IMG/VR virus record: IMGVR_UViG_3300017772_000151
Coordinates: 1 to 22,308 of that record
Direction: 5' to 3' (one strand)
Origin: a virus
DNA: 22,308 nucleotides
A program made the position numbers and the translations under genes. A model generated the notes under the pieces. It made no database searches, was not told the DNA's origin, and worked only from the letters and a program-made list of their open reading frames with translations. Numbering within the stretch: the first letter of the stretch is position 1; every line of letters begins with the position of its first letter. Below, in pieces: positions 6,001-22,308 of this stretch.

Positions 6001-7433
6001 TTATGGAAGACGGTGCGTCTACGGGAATTATGCTGGTACGCGACCAAGACGAGCAGTTAAGAATACTAAAGAACAAGCTAAAGAAAGGTTACACCAGGGA
6101 AGCTTTGAGAGCTATTGCCACTTGGGTGGAAGACTTCAACACGACGATGGAAAACGCCATACGGTTGGCTGCTTACACCGAAGCTAGAAAGGCTGGCACC
6201 GAAAGAGATACGGCAGCTTCACTGGCGAAAGACCTAACCGTCAACTTCAATCGCAAGGGCGAAGATACAGCGGTCATCAATGCGGGTTACTTGTTCTTTA
6301 ACGCGCAGATTCAAGGCGTTGTTAATCAGGCTCAAGCTTTGAGTAGTGATACAGGCAAGATCACAACCGCACAGAAAGTGACTGCGGGTCTTGTTGCCTT
6401 AGGTGGAACATTAGCTGTCATCAATATCCTTACATCAGAGGATGACGATGATGGAGAGAAGAAGTACGCAGACCTGCCAGAGCATGCAAAGAATCGTTCG
6501 CTGTTGTTTATGTATAACAGTGACGAAGGGTTCGCGCTGCCAGCCTCATATGGTTACAACTTCTTTACCAACATCGGCAGGCTGGGTGCTGAACTGGCTT
6601 TTGAGATCAACACCGCAGAGGAGTCTGCGTTGTACCTGTGGGAAAACTTTCTGCTTAACTTCGTTCCGGTTACTCCAGCTAGCGGTGATAGCTGGGAAGA
6701 AAATATGCGAGGTTTTTATCCCGACCTGCTTGAATTGCATGTCGATATGCTAGCTAACAAGAACTTTTTTGGTAGTCAGATTTACATCGAGCAAAACCCG
6801 TACACGGTTGAGCGATCTAACGCCTACAACTCTAGAAGGTCTACTCCCAAGGCGTTTACTGAATTTACCGAATTTCTCAACGATGCTACGGGCGGGGATA
6901 AGTATCGAGACGGTTTTGTGTCGCTCAATCCCGACAAGATCAAGTACACCTATGAGTACTTCTTGGGCGGTGTGGGCAGATTCGTGAGCCAGTCTTCTGA
7001 CGTAGCGGCAAGAATGATGTCGGACGAAGATTTCAGAAAACAAGACCTGCCTGTTGTCGGCACCTTCTTTGAAAGTCCGTCTGAATACAAAGACAGGTTC
7101 GAGTACTACGCCAACTGGGAGGAGAGCAGAAAGATCATCACGAGATTGAAAGAAGCGTCAAGTGTAGAAGAGTTAGAAGCCCTGCGAACTAAGTATGAAT
7201 CTTTTATTCCTGTCATCGAAAACCTTCAAGGCGGGCGCAGAAACAACAGCTTGTACGCAATGGCAAACAGAGATCTAAAAAACATCTCCAAAACTCGAAG
7301 AATTGTAGAGAAGCAAAACATCCCTGATGAGCGACGCAAGGAGCTGCTCAAGGAGTTGCTGGATAACGAGAACGCGATCTTTGATATCTACAACAAAGCG
7401 TACAGGAAAGCAGAGAAAGGCATTAAGAATTAA
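3..7433 (+). CDS. Giant phage polyvalent protein (LPD38-type), 5' partial
   Basis: At least 2476 residues are visible. The frame is open to the left edge (codons from 3 read PKATPDIPEELQ), so the GTG at 54 is probably not the start. The first visible segment (about nt 69-197, LQVALRQGYN...ELEKRGVI) resembles the FtsK gamma winged helix. A metallopeptidase-like HEVYHAAD motif lies at 771-794. Low-complexity linkers follow near 1140-1440 and 2900-3170. Segments seen repeatedly in phage polyvalent proteins lie near 2320-2640 (LGRPNDAS...GRYHWESWV), 3300-3700 (DAFDTQLPHIY...PDVVFMAFDP) and 4320-4470 (NPERHTFFYD). The C-terminal part (about 5760-6620: NPARDVQTG, LAKDLTVNFNRKGE, LFFNAQIQG, GYNFFTNIGR) matches the large polyvalent protein-associated domain LPD38. 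Known: such proteins are multi-enzyme phage proteins thought to be packaged and delivered with the DNA. Inference: a late virion or ejected protein. Individual enzyme activities are uncertain. Confidence 0.88.
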   Translation, partial: PKATPDIPEELQTPYGWVSEQKEEFSASNLQVALRQGYNKTVGQLKELEKRGVIKENKVGRWELINPEEPARRSMETLTQPDQTTVQIAKGTRDSGPAHRWDAELSPADQSVPEQLLQLSIAARSEEAMDPNNTDVVIEPIDQDDVDRIFDRNAAMKIPRPDKPTGRSMPTLEEAYGDDSGRVIDSVAGVVSDLSASGVPASFLDAVSGVYVHKQADYDAVGITGQSSRGISINDELISGSLTDQDKLSELAWTMTHEVYHAADFSMSLSEKDSRLGITIDESAKDPTAGMGSVMRELYDNWNNGTELGKRFDYPFNELADDISDAGKSNEGLNVNYRQEVFAQLGALFHSNPKQLQELAPQAYNYIKGIRDSNLKTAPVQEITDEQSPNQESPDTSQPEGISGEIRAPPQSGSSQSLQPDPVGRDGEEGTGSERADSPVEGQVQDEVGQRERPAVQESDLTPEQTNLEQPDDQTDIYDLSDDDFDELDSLNFIKKGAEYLLEESKGELPEKKSLPVKSITAKTNATEHIGRVDAIVAKHPDALSSPEAWRSFERDLTGSNTTLAPPYGLIKLFNDMDGWTERHSKLTPEQLEAANRGLATAQRMGDLYESGAADAEATGKLLLWGLMSRMLTASAQEAGFVDLLTNSEAVTDLIQKALTGSFSDKTATRMVEVPKTKQKPKHMVERTFNEDVAIWRDAVQKSIPEGSFGRSGTSNANDFGTLMLKMSELDGDGVSKLQRLHDIMADRSIPTFEVRRQFQALVQGSGVDNKVFSFVQLMIGRDDVVILDRIQLNSMWDTERYGKNIYSDIANEFSALHGAARYEVMENALKTKIKELYTRLGRPNDASVGRYHWESWVRDSGQVVAHPTMKGLERDIKGEKSPYAFMGAPEGKMNTYAYGAIYARDDKAKPYYVYPDSKGVMHKFRLDKWNTFKSEIKNPKNGIVDEGFSVREFNKGTPWYESEQVNRQKLDELVRSYAEREATPNEYGSEGTVASSSPNGSRRDQRKRVYKELRSARPSDSGSGTNEGSIPRSFRRRTGRNSQVLVGGQKVSGSKRELETNAKSALASVDAFNGTVIELAPNKTNAKLFASKIQAGKDANKFGAAVYVYPESEYQKMKMFMTEDGSAGIAIENGDTIVSVYSDGTNKDVTFTLGSLAIEEGAIYADAFDTQLPHIYKDIGLKVISRLKWDDAEAPFDWNKQTFERYNKGEPDVVFMAFDPEYFGPYTTDTGYYVDTYAEGMRSIRETRRPEQERISPKLKQAVQDRIDRKITAAELNDTFRKEGRYVKPMHPDMVAPLKPDGHYINALAITDSGLVDKKTGEKKPRKETYWMADVLVDGQRVGARLDIPSYKDPDVDERADIVTVHSARPRKDGEPFRGTAGTRLGYYPTIRLKNISFASPQNAATKIARGGAKTTIATIEGDYVAADHEQNRLDFIAAMDDPAWTQVSMNPERHTFFYDLETQTPVIGGSMGIQVGNLVLVKDAVPDDVENYSYIKKKQINKETNTLDDGSPSTNQFSYNDEIDGQSDLARRLKGSKIYRSLADRYAPLEDFENQAADFLGVGRLPASMSPRDKENLSHGKVQNDLDAFHENYVDPLGDLIAELKVDPDAVGTYLIAKHAAERNDSIAAKVKAQRKTNIDRTEREIERLLSDTGVDHSVSLATQKEKLNNYKTMPLAFQDTGSGMTYDQAASVLNLAEREGTKAGMERIANKVYEMLQHQRDIMVESGLMDEDTVSDWEANYQFYVPLKGFAAEENDDDYSRSTSRHHSKASGFSVVGSESMRAKGRKTLPVNPLFTAIEDVQMKIIRAQKNKTAQVLLELLGELGNSDSYTIYNNKFRPPKRSDELTMQDMDEMKNATRVNKDPKYVQVKKGGQTFFIEFKSDTLNHALQDMSVPMLDQANNSMQKFLTLANRFQTFRRNMLINYNPSWGLVNPARDVQTGIMYALASKDKLGSRVQGENLVGKMAASYLPSMRSMYRVMRGKPVREGTLDQYAVEFMEDGASTGIMLVRDQDEQLRILKNKLKKGYTREALRAIATWVEDFNTTMENAIRLAAYTEARKAGTERDTAASLAKDLTVNFNRKGEDTAVINAGYLFFNAQIQGVVNQAQALSSDTGKITTAQKVTAGLVALGGTLAVINILTSEDDDDGEKKYADLPEHAKNRSLLFMYNSDEGFALPASYGYNFFTNIGRLGAELAFEINTAEESALYLWENFLLNFVPVTPASGDSWEENMRGFYPDLLELHVDMLANKNFFGSQIYIEQNPYTVERSNAYNSRRSTPKAFTEFTEFLNDATGGDKYRDGFVSLNPDKIKYTYEYFLGGVGRFVSQSSDVAARMMSDEDFRKQDLPVVGTFFESPSEYKDRFEYYANWEESRKIITRLKEASSVEELEALRTKYESFIPVIENLQGGRRNNSLYAMANRDLKNISKTRRIVEKQNIPDERRKELLKELLDNENAIFDIYNKAYRKAEKGIKN
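1156..1386 (+). CDS. Possible overprinted small gene inside the giant gene (linker 1)
   Basis: A 76-residue frame lies entirely inside the giant gene, shifted by one base relative to it. It starts with ATG 7 nt after a clean AGGAG at 1144-1148. The product reads like a normal soluble helical protein (LKAYQEKFGH, ARAYSRTQLDEMAKKALEAN, IAQWRDRSKM). The giant protein's own frame over the same bases is a P/S/Q/E/G-rich disordered linker. No family recognised. Alternatives: a relic of an older coding frame left by compensating frameshifts, or chance. The SD and the composition contrast favour dual coding or a relic over pure chance. Confidence 0.35.
   Translation: MNKVQIKRVPTPPNLKAYQEKFGHRHSPEAARAYSRTQLDEMAKKALEANEPIAQWRDRSKMKLDNVNDQQYKNLT
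2884..3144 (+). CDS. Possible overprinted small gene inside the giant gene (linker 2)
   Basis: An 86-residue frame is nested in the giant gene in the same alternative frame as the one at 1156. The ATG at 2884 is preceded by AAAGGAA (2868-2874), a well-spaced SD. A TTG at 2836 would extend it but has no SD. The product has an S/T/K-rich start, then a charged helical half (TVLKELLQVVPP, LIAGVERMKEVYPEASDEEL, AEILKYS), whose last part looks like a small UBA/CUE-type helical unit. The giant frame here is S/R/G-rich and low in complexity. No family is recognised and function is unknown. A frameshift relic is the main alternative. Confidence 0.35.
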   Translation: MNQNKSTDKSSTNSSGLTQKERRLRTNTVLKELLQVVPPMAPDEINESESTKSFVVPDHLIAGVERMKEVYPEASDEELAEILKYS

Positions 7434-12875: not shown

Positions 12876-13292
12876 TTACTTTGTGACCAACAAGTCAATG
12901 ATGTCGCCAATGCTTTCTCTTTTGTTTTCATCGAGATAGAAGCCGCAAAGCTTTGCGAACTGCTTTGGCGTAAAGGTGTAATCGCTTTTTTCTTCAAACG
13001 CTTTGACGTAAAGGATAGCGTCAGTCATTTCTTGTACAGTTTTTTCGCGTGAGGTTGGCACCTCTCTTGATTTAAGCGTTACCCACAAATAAATATCAAT
13101 ATTGTACAAGTCGCAAAGCTCAACAACTCGCGTCGCGTCGCTTGGCAAACTACCTTTTATCCATGCTTGAGCTGAAGCTGCGCTGCATCCAGTAGCTTTA
13201 ACAATAGCAGACGCTCGCCCCCATTCGGGAACCCCAGCGCTATCAAGCGCAGCTTTAAACACCTCTAATCGTTCTTTTCTTTGGTCAGCCAT
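12876..13292 (-). CDS. Small HTH repressor-like protein
   Basis: This 138-residue protein has an N-terminal helix-turn-helix (about 25-55: ASAIVKATGCSAASAQAWIKGSLPSD), fitting XRE/Cro-type DNA-binding domains, and a short C-terminal helical region (85-138). It lacks an S24 LexA/CI self-cleavage domain, so any induction must use another route. A longer frame from 13322 exists, but AGGAG stands 7 nt before the ATG at 13292, so that start is chosen. It is transcribed divergently from the replication genes, as phage lysogeny repressors are. Confidence 0.82.
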   Translation of the reverse strand: MADQRKERLEVFKAALDSAGVPEWGRASAIVKATGCSAASAQAWIKGSLPSDATRVVELCDLYNIDIYLWVTLKSREVPTSREKTVQEMTDAILYVKAFEEKSDYTFTPKQFAKLCGFYLDENKRESIGDIIDLLVTK

Positions 13293-14193: not shown

Positions 14194-16025
14194 TGGACGT
14201 AAAGGAACTAGTTAGACATTTGGCACCAAACGCTACGGAAGTGTGTCGCGAGCTGTACACCGAAGGAAAATTCGAGTCAGGCAGATACACGATTGGCAAC
14301 ATTCAAGGCGACAAGGGCGACAGTATGAGTGTCACCCTGACCGGACAGTACGCAGGAAAGTTTATGGACTACGCACTTGGTGAGGGGGGTGATCTGCTCG
14401 ATCTCATCATGCACCGGAAGAACCTCACTCTGGTTGAGGCGATGGACTGGTCAAAAAAACGGTTCGGTATACGAGACAATACGCCTGCAAAAAAAGTTGT
14501 CGCGGCGGAAAAAAAGAATTACACCCTTCCCAAACCACCCCCTAAAAATGAGCATAAAAATCTGCATGAATACATGGAGAAGAGAGGGTTTAAGGATGTG
14601 GGGGAAGTTTGCTTTCGGTGGAAGATTTATGAGGCTGATGGTAAGCGTGGACAAGATGTCGTTTTTCCGTTTTTTGAGCCTAACGGTAGGCAGACATTCA
14701 TCAAGACCAAGCCGATTAACTATGACGGCAATCCATCTACGCAGAAAGACCTCAAGCCAATTTTGTTTGGATGGCAAGCTATGCCAGACGATGCACGAAA
14801 GGTCTGGATTGTAGAAGGCGAGTGGGACGCTTGCGCCGCTGGTGAACTAGGATTTCCAGCATTGTCCGTGCCAATGGGCGGGGGTCGAGGCGCAAAGCAG
14901 ACCAAGTGGATCGCTCATGAATTTGAAAACCTAGCTAGGTTTGAAGAGATATTAATCGCTACAGATATGGACGAACAGGGTGAGTTAGCTGCGGCAGAAA
15001 TTATGCAGCGCCTGGGAGATCGATGCTATCGAGTAAACCTGCCAACAAAAGATATCAACGAGCTACTCCAGAAAGAAGGTTATGAGAAAGCTAAATGGAT
15101 GCTGGAGAGCGCATATGAAAAGGCGCGATGGAAAGACCCTATAACTCTCAAATCCGTACTCGATTTTGAAAACGACATCGATGATTTTTTCGAGAACAAG
15201 ATGGACGACACTCAGGGCTTTGGCAGTGGCTGGCAGAAGCTCGACAAAGAAGACATAAAATTTCGGGAAAACGAGTTGTGGGGAGTGTGCGGCATCAACG
15301 GACACGGTAAGTCGATGTGGCTTAACCAGCTCGCGTTAAACGCTGTTGAACAAGAACAGCGAGTATTGATTGCAAGCATGGAGATGACACCCAAATCCAC
15401 GATGGGTCGAATGATGCGCCAAGCAGCAGGCGCAGGATCGCCACCTAAACCGTACAGGTCGAAGCTGCTTGAGTGGATGTCTCCAAACCTATGGTTGTTT
15501 GTGGACAAGCTTACGCCTAAGCCTGAGGACTTGATGGCTTGTTTTGAATACGCCTACCGCAGATACGGCATCAATGTCTTTGTGGTCGATTCCCTCACCA
15601 ATATGGTTAGGCAGGATGACTATGAAGGTCAACAAAGGTTCATCGAGAAGTTGGTGAACTTCAAGCTGTCATTCCCTGTGACGATCTTCATCGTGACGCA
15701 CGTCAGAAAGGGCGAATCAGAGTATGCAGCGCCTAACAAGTACGACGTTAAGGGTAGCGGCAGTATCACCGACCTCGCTGACGGATTCATCAGTGTTTGG
15801 AAGAACAAAAAGAAAACAGAGCAGATCGAGCAAGCCGAATTGTTAGGCGAAGAGCCTGATGAACAGTACGTCAGGCAATGGGATATGTATTTGGAGGTTC
15901 TAAAAAACCGTAACGGTATGTTCGAGGGAAAGGTTGGTTTCCAGTTTGACCCTGCCTGCTGCCAGTACTCTGAACACAAAAACGGTAAGGCGCGTTATTA
16001 CATCAATTATAGCAAAGAAGGTTAG
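14190..16025 (+). CDS. Primase-helicase (TOPRIM plus DnaB-like ATPase)
   Basis: This 611-residue bifunctional protein resembles T7 gp4. The N-terminal domain (1-100: GKFESGRYTIGNIQGDKGDSM, YALGEGGDLLDLIM) is a primase-type domain without the usual four-cysteine zinc finger. The TOPRIM region (about 204-290) has VWIVEGEWDA (E209) and IATDMDEQG (D259, D261). The RecA-like helicase domain has Walker A GINGHGKS (368-375), ASMEMT, Walker B NVFVVDSLTN and the downstream KGSGSI segment. It would prime and unwind at the replication fork. The first ATG overlaps the initiator's stop (ATGA); GGAGG lies upstream. Confidence 0.93.
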   Translation: MMDVKELVRHLAPNATEVCRELYTEGKFESGRYTIGNIQGDKGDSMSVTLTGQYAGKFMDYALGEGGDLLDLIMHRKNLTLVEAMDWSKKRFGIRDNTPAKKVVAAEKKNYTLPKPPPKNEHKNLHEYMEKRGFKDVGEVCFRWKIYEADGKRGQDVVFPFFEPNGRQTFIKTKPINYDGNPSTQKDLKPILFGWQAMPDDARKVWIVEGEWDACAAGELGFPALSVPMGGGRGAKQTKWIAHEFENLARFEEILIATDMDEQGELAAAEIMQRLGDRCYRVNLPTKDINELLQKEGYEKAKWMLESAYEKARWKDPITLKSVLDFENDIDDFFENKMDDTQGFGSGWQKLDKEDIKFRENELWGVCGINGHGKSMWLNQLALNAVEQEQRVLIASMEMTPKSTMGRMMRQAAGAGSPPKPYRSKLLEWMSPNLWLFVDKLTPKPEDLMACFEYAYRRYGINVFVVDSLTNMVRQDDYEGQQRFIEKLVNFKLSFPVTIFIVTHVRKGESEYAAPNKYDVKGSGSITDLADGFISVWKNKKKTEQIEQAELLGEEPDEQYVRQWDMYLEVLKNRNGMFEGKVGFQFDPACCQYSEHKNGKARYYINYSKEG

Positions 16026-19737: not shown

Positions 19738-19755
19738 AGCACCCCGAAGGGTGCT
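19738..19755 (-). ncRNA. UUCG-capped intercistronic RNA hairpin
   Basis: On the minus strand AGCACCC-UUCG-GGGUGCU is a perfect 7-bp stem with the very stable C(UUCG)G loop. It covers the upstream gene's stop (TAG, 19756-19754) and precedes the next SD. No U-tract follows, so it is more likely an mRNA processing or stabilising element than a terminator. Confidence 0.6.
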
Positions 19756-19951
19756 AGCTCCATTTTGCCGACAAGTAATAGACTGCTTTGAAGTATTCCC
19801 ACTTTGAGTAGTCACACATTGGCTCTTCTCCCTGTTTGACGCTTCGGTTCTTGTGATAGCATTCAGCCCCGCAATACTTGCGACTAGCGTGTCGCTCCCC
19901 AGACAAAGGTTTCCCGCAACTTTGTAATTTGCACGTTGGCGCATCACTCAT
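19754..19951 (-). CDS. Small zinc-finger-like protein
   Basis: This 65-residue protein has CKLQSCGKPL ... RKYCGAECYHKN, a C-x4-C ... C-x3-C pattern with His, typical of small treble-clef fingers of phages. The C-terminal part is aromatic (YSKWEYFKAVYYLSAKWS). It overlaps the upstream gene by ATGA. Function unknown; nucleic-acid or protein binding is plausible. Its stop lies in the stem of the UUCG hairpin. Confidence 0.72.
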   Translation of the reverse strand: MSDAPTCKLQSCGKPLSGERHASRKYCGAECYHKNRSVKQGEEPMCDYSKWEYFKAVYYLSAKWS

Positions 19952-20115
19952 TCACCACGCTCCGCAATTAGTTGATCCATCAACCTGCCCATTCGTAAAA
20001 GCTCCTGCCGTGCTTCTGACAGCGCTTTAGGAGTTGTTCCGTTTTCCAGAACAACACATAAAATCTGTGCTGTCTGTTCCCACGTCGGGGTCATGTCTAC
20101 CTTAAATTCGTTCAT
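19948..20115 (-). CDS. Small helical protein following ribozyme 3
   Basis: This 55-residue product (MNEFKVDMTPTWEQTAQILC, VVLENGTTPKALSEARQELL, then RMGRLMDQLIAERGE) is a helical, amphipathic small protein with no recognised family. AAAGGA lies 8 nt before the ATG. It is the first gene after the third hammerhead ribozyme (cleavage between 20145 and 20144), so cleavage would give its mRNA a 29-nt leader. It overlaps the next gene by ATGA. Confidence 0.75.
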   Translation of the reverse strand: MNEFKVDMTPTWEQTAQILCVVLENGTTPKALSEARQELLRMGRLMDQLIAERGE

Positions 20116-20133
20116 CTAAATCATCCTTTTATT

Positions 20134-20213
20134 TAGTTTTCCAAGACTCAACCTGTACGCTTTTCCGTACTGGTTAAGTTTCGACCAGTCACTATCTGGT
20201 CTCATCAGTTGGA
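20134..20213 (-). ncRNA. Hammerhead ribozyme 3 (type I)
   Basis: Core CUGAUGA (20208-20202) and GAAA (20182-20179). Stem I: UCCAA (20213-20209) with UUGGA (20144-20140). Stem II: GACCAG (20201-20196) with CUGGUC (20188-20183), loop AUAGUGA. Stem III: ACUUAACC (20179-20172) with GGUUGAGU (20153-20146), extended by GUACG/CGUAC. Cleavage triplet GUC (20147-20145). Loop II UAGU (20194-20191) can pair with ACUA (20137-20134). It starts directly after the SprT-like gene's stop. Confidence 0.93.
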
Positions 20214-20741
20214 TTAAGCCGCCTCCTGCTTCGCGTCATCGACAAACGGATTGATCAGTGCGACACGCAGGTCAGCGTAGATGGATTGAAATCCAGCGCC
20301 GTGCCCCTTCTTGTAGGTCTTGATCAGGTGCCGCGTGTGAGGTCCGTAGCGATACTGGATGTGGTGCGCTACCTCATGAGCGACCAGCGCTTTAAGCAGC
20401 AGCTCTCTGTCATCGGAATGCTCAATGTCGCCGATGAGTTTGCTTTTGGCGAACGCGGCATATTCCTTAAACTTTGAGCGTCCGTTGCGAAAGCAAGAAA
20501 GGTCAATCGTGATGCCATCCTTGCCGCCGTAGGAGTGCTGCCCTCTGCACTTGGTGGTGACTGCCAATCTCTTGACAGCGTCAGCGTACTTGACTGGCTG
20601 TCCGTTCTGGCTCATCAACTCGTATTGCTTCTTGCACATCTCTCGCAAGCATTGCCTTGCAAACTTCACGACCAGCTTGTGTTCGACGGGGGTCACGTTT
20701 GACCCGCGCTTGTTTATTTTTGTCACTTTTCTAAATCTCAT
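20214..20741 (-). CDS. SprT-like zinc metalloprotease
   Basis: This 175-residue protein has HEVAH (122-126) in KALVAHEVAHHIQYRYG, and H147 in KGHGAGFQSIYADLR, matching the HExxH...H site of SprT/Spartan-like proteases. Known: eukaryotic Spartan removes DNA-protein crosslinks; bacterial and phage SprT roles are less clear. The ATG at 20741 is chosen because GGAGG lies 6 nt upstream; a frame from 20879 would lie inside the previous gene. It overlaps that gene by 11 nt. Ribozyme 3 begins at the base after its stop, so its mRNA would end in the ribozyme's 5' fragment. Confidence 0.87.
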   Translation of the reverse strand: MRFRKVTKINKRGSNVTPVEHKLVVKFARQCLREMCKKQYELMSQNGQPVKYADAVKRLAVTTKCRGQHSYGGKDGITIDLSCFRNGRSKFKEYAAFAKSKLIGDIEHSDDRELLLKALVAHEVAHHIQYRYGPHTRHLIKTYKKGHGAGFQSIYADLRVALINPFVDDAKQEAA

Positions 20742-21553: not shown

Positions 21554-21571
21554 TTGATGCCTCCTCCGGCA

Positions 21572-21638
21572 TTGGTTTTCTCAGAGAGCCGCGAGGCTCT
21601 TTCGACTGGGTAACCAACCCAGCGGCTCATCAGTGAGA
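21572..21638 (-). ncRNA. Hammerhead ribozyme 1 (type I)
   Basis: Core CUGAUGA (21633-21627) and GAAA (21603-21600). Stem I: UCUCA (21638-21634) with UGAGA (21583-21579). Stem II: G21626-C21604, two bulged C, G21623-U21605, CUGGG (21622-21618) with CCCAG (21610-21606), loop UUGGUUA. Stem III: AGAGCC (21600-21595) with GGCUCU (21590-21585), loop UCGC. Triplet CUC (21586-21584). Loop II UUGGUU (21617-21612) can pair with AACCAA (21577-21572). Stem I starts 1 nt after the upstream stop codon. Confidence 0.92.
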
Positions 21639-22225: not shown

Positions 22226-22245
22226 TTAATGCCTCCTCAGGCTTA

Positions 22246-22308
22246 GGTTTTCTGTGACCCCGTTAAGGGGTTTCGACGGGTAACCAACCCGCAGCTCTTC
22301 AGACAGAA
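22246..22308 (-). ncRNA. Hammerhead ribozyme 2 (type I)
   Basis: Core CUGAAGA (22302-22296) and GAAA (22274-22271). Stem I: UUCUGU (22308-22303, at the window edge) with ACAGAA (22255-22250). Stem II: G22295-C22275, bulged C and U, G22292-U22276, CGGG (22291-22288) with CCCG (22280-22277), loop UUGGUUA. Stem III: ACCCC (22271-22267) with GGGGU (22261-22257). Triplet GUC (22258-22256). Loop II GGUU (22285-22282) can pair with AACC (22249-22246). Upstream gene lies outside the window. Confidence 0.93.

Follow-up and report, generated by a model that had tools for sequence, protein, structure and literature searches.

An intact type I hammerhead ribozyme occupies the gap between a SprT-like gene and a 55-aa gene of an uncultured phage (positions 20140-20213, minus strand, of the window, by which we mean the whole stretch of DNA analyzed, a 22.3-kb fragment of a virus record), and it probably cuts a polycistronic phage mRNA into units with uniform leaders. 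The hammerhead, here called copy 3, is real and not a product of chance. Its structure, conservation, covariation, placement and spacing were observed. Because its anatomy lies beyond chance, its pairings covary, its relatives match in the sense of the flanking genes, its spacing to neighboring codons recurs and a parallel exists in Pseudomonas phage PaP3, we infer cleavage in the cell and an effect on the mRNAs.

Genome context of copy 3

The window codes for an integrase, a RecE-like exonuclease, a Sak-like annealing protein and a primase/helicase, which suggests that its source is probably a temperate tailed phage. On the minus strand, the stretch between 22308 and about 18240 is a single run of small genes. 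The gene upstream of copy 3 (20214-20741, minus strand) encodes a 175-aa SprT-like protein with the motif HEVAHH (Pfam SprT-like, E = 0.005, which does not reach the cut-off; 52 relatives), and the downstream gene (19948-20115, minus strand) encodes a 55-aa protein of unassigned function that is similar to phrog_22670 and has homologues following a hammerhead in the related loci L089, L094 and L096. Further along the run, at a junction that has no hammerhead, a GCACCC-UUCG-GGGUGC hairpin (19739-19754, minus strand) extends from the stop codon of a 65-aa gene, upstream of the next gene.

BLASTN found no match to the copy 3 region in cultured phages, tblastn with the SprT-like protein returned no match, and the 122-aa protein encoded after copy 1 had no tblastn relative among the candidates scanned. 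When the primase was compared with genomes in search of a host, the sole match was 26 residues long, in Devosia, and a hammerhead scan of 398 genomes from the phylum of that match gave one weak match. A type I hammerhead-like match without the pseudoknot flank was seen in a bacterial genome (L130, 1501-1559, minus strand).

Anatomy of copy 3

Read from 20213 to 20140 on the minus strand, copy 3 is UCCAA-CUGAUGA-GACCAG-AUAGUGA-CUGGUC-GAA-ACUUAACC-A-GUACG-GAAAAG-CGUAC-A-GGUUGAGU-C-UUGGA. Stem I has 5 bp (20209-20213 with 20140-20144) and is followed by the core segment CUGAUGA at 20202-20208. Stem II has 6 bp (20196-20201 with 20183-20188), and the GAA at 20180-20182 belongs to the GAAA of the core. 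Stem III is a long two-part helix (20146-20179) closed by a GAAAAG loop and resembling that of L096 7147-7229; the first part has 8 bp including one U.G (20172-20179 with 20146-20153), the second has 5 bp (20166-20170 with 20155-20159), and an A.A mismatch separates the two. The GUC triplet ends at 20145. Copy 3 thus has the hammerhead core CUGANGA ... GAAA ... UH round a three-way junction, with the complete set of invariant core letters, and it is of type I, since stem I is open and stems II and III are closed by loops. Hammerheads cleave themselves 3′ of C17, leaving a 2′,3′-cyclic phosphate and a 5′-OH, and cleavage after C17 of the GUC is predicted at 20144/20145 on the minus strand, with the 5′-OH end at 20144.

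Descriptor and fold bore out the coordinates, the strand, the 6-bp stem II, the 8-plus-5-bp stem III and the intact core with its GUC as given in the original prediction. As also stated there, copy 3 starts at the base next to the SprT-like stop codon, which lies at 20214-20216 and abuts it.

Three hammerheads on one strand are beyond chance

A strict type I descriptor matched the window at exactly three places, all on the minus strand, and found nothing on either strand of 60 dinucleotide shuffles of the window; a reversed control of 1.16 Mb of related loci also gave no hammerhead match. The other two matches are copy 2 (21579-21638, minus strand) and, at the contig end, copy 1 (22250-22308, minus strand; core CUGAAGA), both also identified by loop-flank pairing and by covariance model. 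The minimum-free-energy fold of copy 3 is the hammerhead itself, with z = −5.0 and none of 200 shuffles as stable. A covariance model (R2) was built from 14 relatives with all window sequences left out, the kind of check called for at the outset. On the window it returned the three copies and nothing else, with E values of 2.5e-15, 3.3e-15 (copy 3) and 1.7e-14, and it thereby places copy 3 among the intercistronic type I hammerheads of this phage lineage. Descriptor, model and fold together uphold the claim that three intercistronic hammerheads on one strand exceed chance.

Routine annotation would miss copy 3, because the Rfam models score below their cut-offs. The Rfam scan of the whole window did not report it; on a 141-base stretch, RAGATH-1-hammerhead (RF03152) scored 26.4 bits against a gathering threshold of 56.3, with its 5′ hairpin weakly matched, and Hammerhead_1 (RF00163) scored 21.1 bits against 34. 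The one match that the whole-window scan did report was weak, to Rothia-sucC within the primase gene (14693-14749, plus strand), and we took it as chance.

A hairpin-rich intercistronic spacer, or a terminator that happens to resemble a hammerhead, would account for the two stable hairpins at copy 3. We regard this as extremely improbable: every invariant letter of the hammerhead core is there, the site has no terminator-like feature, and the idea is contradicted by the leave-out model (E of 3e-15) and by the covariation described below.

A pseudoknot and covariation in the lineage

Across copies, loop II can pair, in a single fixed register, with the bases that follow stem I on its 3′ side. 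In copy 3, UAGU (20191-20194) within the stem II loop AUAGUGA (20189-20195) is complementary to ACUA (20134-20137), all on the minus strand, and the near twin in L011 has UGGU/ACCA there. The corresponding pairs are GGUU/AACC in copy 1, UUGGUU/AACCAA in copy 2, AUGGUUA/UAACCAU in L004, UGGA/UCCA in L112 and UGAUU/AAUCA in PaP3. Over 24 sequences, four pseudoknot pairs are paired in 91% of cases, with GC/AU and UA/AU/GC swaps and exchanges on both sides, and the matched loop-flank pairs exceed all 2000 permutations. Complementarity and covariation of this predicted pseudoknot point to the tertiary contact between stem I and the stem II region that is expected of the class. Such pseudoknots occur among hammerheads of all three types, and the hammerheads that were assayed depended on them to cut fast (PMC3088659).

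Compensatory changes in the relatives extend to the three closing stems. Among the 24 relatives, 96% of cells are paired compared to 79% in shuffles, a difference that is partly conditional on the descriptor used to select the relatives and thus on stem pairing imposed in part by that selection. The pseudoknot provides independent support, since its pairing was not used in choosing the sequences.

Related hammerheads in other phages

Related loci were gathered through relatives of the SprT-like protein, of the 136-aa protein encoded after copy 2 and of the primase. A covariance model (R1) gave 66 matches in 99 such loci, all in the sense of the flanking genes, and one 53.7-kb record holds six hammerheads within about 4.4 kb. 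At least one copy was present in 12 of 20 larger related records and none in the other 8, so the lineage does not depend on the hammerhead. Viral contigs gave no match to a strict pattern for the stem II of copies 1 and 2, and Pseudomonas phage AF, which shares the primase, had no match in the 25-kb stretch searched.

The relatives also correct the view of copy 3 as an independent ribozyme with unrelated stems. A near twin in L011 and other loci has the same stems I and II except for one loop letter, between other genes on both sides, and the long stem III recurs at L096 7147-7229 together with the downstream gene; copy 3 is thus not independent. To call the stems of the three copies unrelated was an overstatement, as the copies agree in the length of stem I, the geometry of loop II, the presence of a pseudoknot and their spacing.

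Several relatives depart from the standard form. L102 (minus strand, about 7353-7405) and L103 (minus strand, about 13192-13247) carry type III hammerheads, in which stem I is closed and stem III is open. Each is immediately followed by a Shine-Dalgarno hairpin, which indicates that both permutations serve the same slot. In L103 10708-10773 and L096 7533-7600 (both minus strand) U3 and A8 replace C3 and G8 in the core, a change that covaries as a pair and is reported to be active (PMC3088659). Other core variants, namely U4 to C, C3 to U alone and an extra U after the core, occur in L103 8265-8333 (minus strand), L004 1374-1438 (plus strand), L112 10399-10464 (minus strand) and L113 13205-13270 (minus strand), and altered cores in some relatives may cut slowly or not at all. 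The L004 element sits right after a SprT-like stop codon, as copy 3 does, but precedes a different gene. On the minus strand of L089, L090 and L094, the stem III loop holds about 65-70 extra bases that are conserved between contigs.

The altered cores and the copy-free contigs, like the Rfam scores below gathering and the descriptor-imposed stem pairing, count against the message-processing reading. The first two would also fit a degenerate relic, or a passenger that drifts and is spread by recombination without present function. Such an origin is improbable for copy 3, whose core is intact and whose stems are all present; many phages show compensatory changes and a strict spacing, which are signs of selection.

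Placement between stop and start codons

The predicted cut lies 24-33 nt from the next start codon in 30 of 40 non-redundant copies. For copy 3 the leader remaining after predicted cleavage would be 29 nt (20116-20144, minus strand), with the Shine-Dalgarno sequence AAGGA at 20124-20128. In 22 of the 40 copies the upstream stop codon is found within −9 to +3 nt of the ribozyme, and four of these (L011, L064, L090 and L096) use the UGA within the core CUGA as that stop codon.

These features favor processing of the message. As the RNA is made in a long, one-direction operon, the three stems and the pseudoknot between loop II and the leader would form, and the RNA would cut itself at 20145/20144. 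The upstream mRNA, which ends with the SprT-like gene, would then terminate in a 2′,3′-cyclic phosphate behind two stable hairpins, while the downstream mRNA would begin with a 5′-OH 29 nt ahead of its start codon. Together, copies 1 to 3 would in this way yield separate messages of two, four and several genes, and the leader of each would be short, uniform and independent of upstream sequence.

The closeness of the stop codons, and in particular the four that coincide with the core UGA, would also suit a gating role, in which folding is held up while a terminating ribosome sits on stem I and the core, so that cutting reports translation of the upstream gene. We consider this unlikely, as short intercistronic gaps would yield the same spacing and several copies lie 31-36 nt away from the stop.

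Genes of the primase group have a small leader hairpin at the Shine-Dalgarno site in 22 of the 22 counted, compared to 41 of 188 other genes, and upstream of several of the remaining genes with such a hairpin lies a variant or type III hammerhead or a terminator-like hairpin. Copy 2 has the hairpin AUGCC-GGAGGA-GGCAU (21557-21572, minus strand) and copy 1 has GCCUGAGGAGGC (22231-22242, minus strand). The copy 3 leader forms no stable hairpin (−0.4 kcal/mol) and so does not show the RiboJ-like combination of hammerhead and leader hairpin. We discarded the idea that every unit includes a Shine-Dalgarno hairpin, since copy 3 and most of the 136-aa-protein group lack one.

Ribozymes as possible recombination joints

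A further explanation, compatible with message processing, is that the genes are insulated, exchangeable cassettes: the next gene would receive the same trimmed leader whatever lies upstream, the ribozyme copies would serve as recombination homology, and ribozyme and leader would be kept because they allow genes to be swapped. We hold this to be a real possibility, although short of probable. Copy 3 is itself a mosaic. The 95 nt upstream are 80% identical to L004 and the 5′ half of the ribozyme 85%, while the 3′ half is 88% like L096 compared to 44% like L004, and a homologue of the downstream 55-aa gene sits after the L096 ribozyme. The 5′ half is also 80% like L096, almost as close as to L004, and the exact crossover point is therefore not fixed. 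These comparisons give copy 3 the appearance of a recombination joint, with its 5′ half and upstream gene resembling L004 and its 3′ half and downstream gene resembling L096.

Similar joints appear elsewhere in the lineage. L100 (14648-15047, minus strand) differs from L098 (8852-8917, minus strand) by one extra 82-aa gene and one extra ribozyme, gained or lost in a segment that has a ribozyme repeat, about 85 nt long, at each border, and several pairs of loci are 80-98% identical up to a ribozyme and have no detectable similarity beyond it. Per kilobase, homology breakpoints number 6.4 at ribozymes, 4.0 at other gene starts and 1.35 elsewhere. However, phage mosaics break at gene borders regardless, breakpoints at ribozymes outnumber those at other gene starts only modestly (p = 0.008), in a count of events that are not independent, and copy 3 has no stable Shine-Dalgarno hairpin. 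The breakpoint and mosaic data are suggestive of ribozymes acting as recombination joints. Only tentatively do we propose that the hammerheads of this lineage are natural insulators as well as joints for the gain, loss and swap of cassettes, and that copy 3 is such a joint between two lineages. If so, the standard trimmed leader would make the gene after a ribozyme freely replaceable.

Comparison with known systems

Hammerheads were found in phages in 2011, and their role has been a standing question since. In the present lineage, where one record holds as many as six similar copies at strict spacing and sister phages differ by one gene and one ribozyme, that role becomes directly testable, including whether a ribozyme makes downstream expression independent of the upstream neighbor and so aids phage gene exchange. 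Among the open-licence papers searched, we found no proposal of phage hammerheads as natural insulators or exchange joints, which counts as weak evidence.

The cassette explanation would make these elements the natural counterpart of the engineered RiboJ insulator, in which a hammerhead trims the leader and a hairpin comes after it, close to the ribosome site on its upstream side. RiboJ differs in being engineered, derived from plant satellite RNA and used after promoters, and copy 3 differs from it in lacking a stable leader hairpin. The core and layout of RF03152 and RF00163 align with copy 3, which matches the 5′ hairpin of RAGATH-1 poorly. In PaP3 (NC_004466, 44027-44111) the same covariance model found a hammerhead with E = 3.5e-10 that, like copy 3, follows a stop codon, lies about 30 nt before the next start and has the pseudoknot; unlike in the window, one copy was found, with a longer stem III. 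A PaP3 hammerhead is among those listed as active in PMC3088659, and it may not be the exact element found here.

Perreault et al. (2011; PMC3088659) described clustered hammerheads flanking prophage genes, with pseudoknots and published cleavage, proposed that they process long phage transcripts, and showed that a triple array from A. tumefaciens cleaves in E. coli. The present copies resemble that set in lying severally between phage genes, in including type I and in having the pseudoknot between stem I and the stem II region; they differ in belonging to another, metagenome-sampled lineage, and what is described here in addition is how the copies are spaced from stop and start codons, the hairpin in the leader and the joints in the mosaics. 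Since transcript processing by phage hammerheads was proposed and cleavage shown in 2011, the copies in the window are a known kind of element, and the insulated, exchangeable cassette is the newer part.
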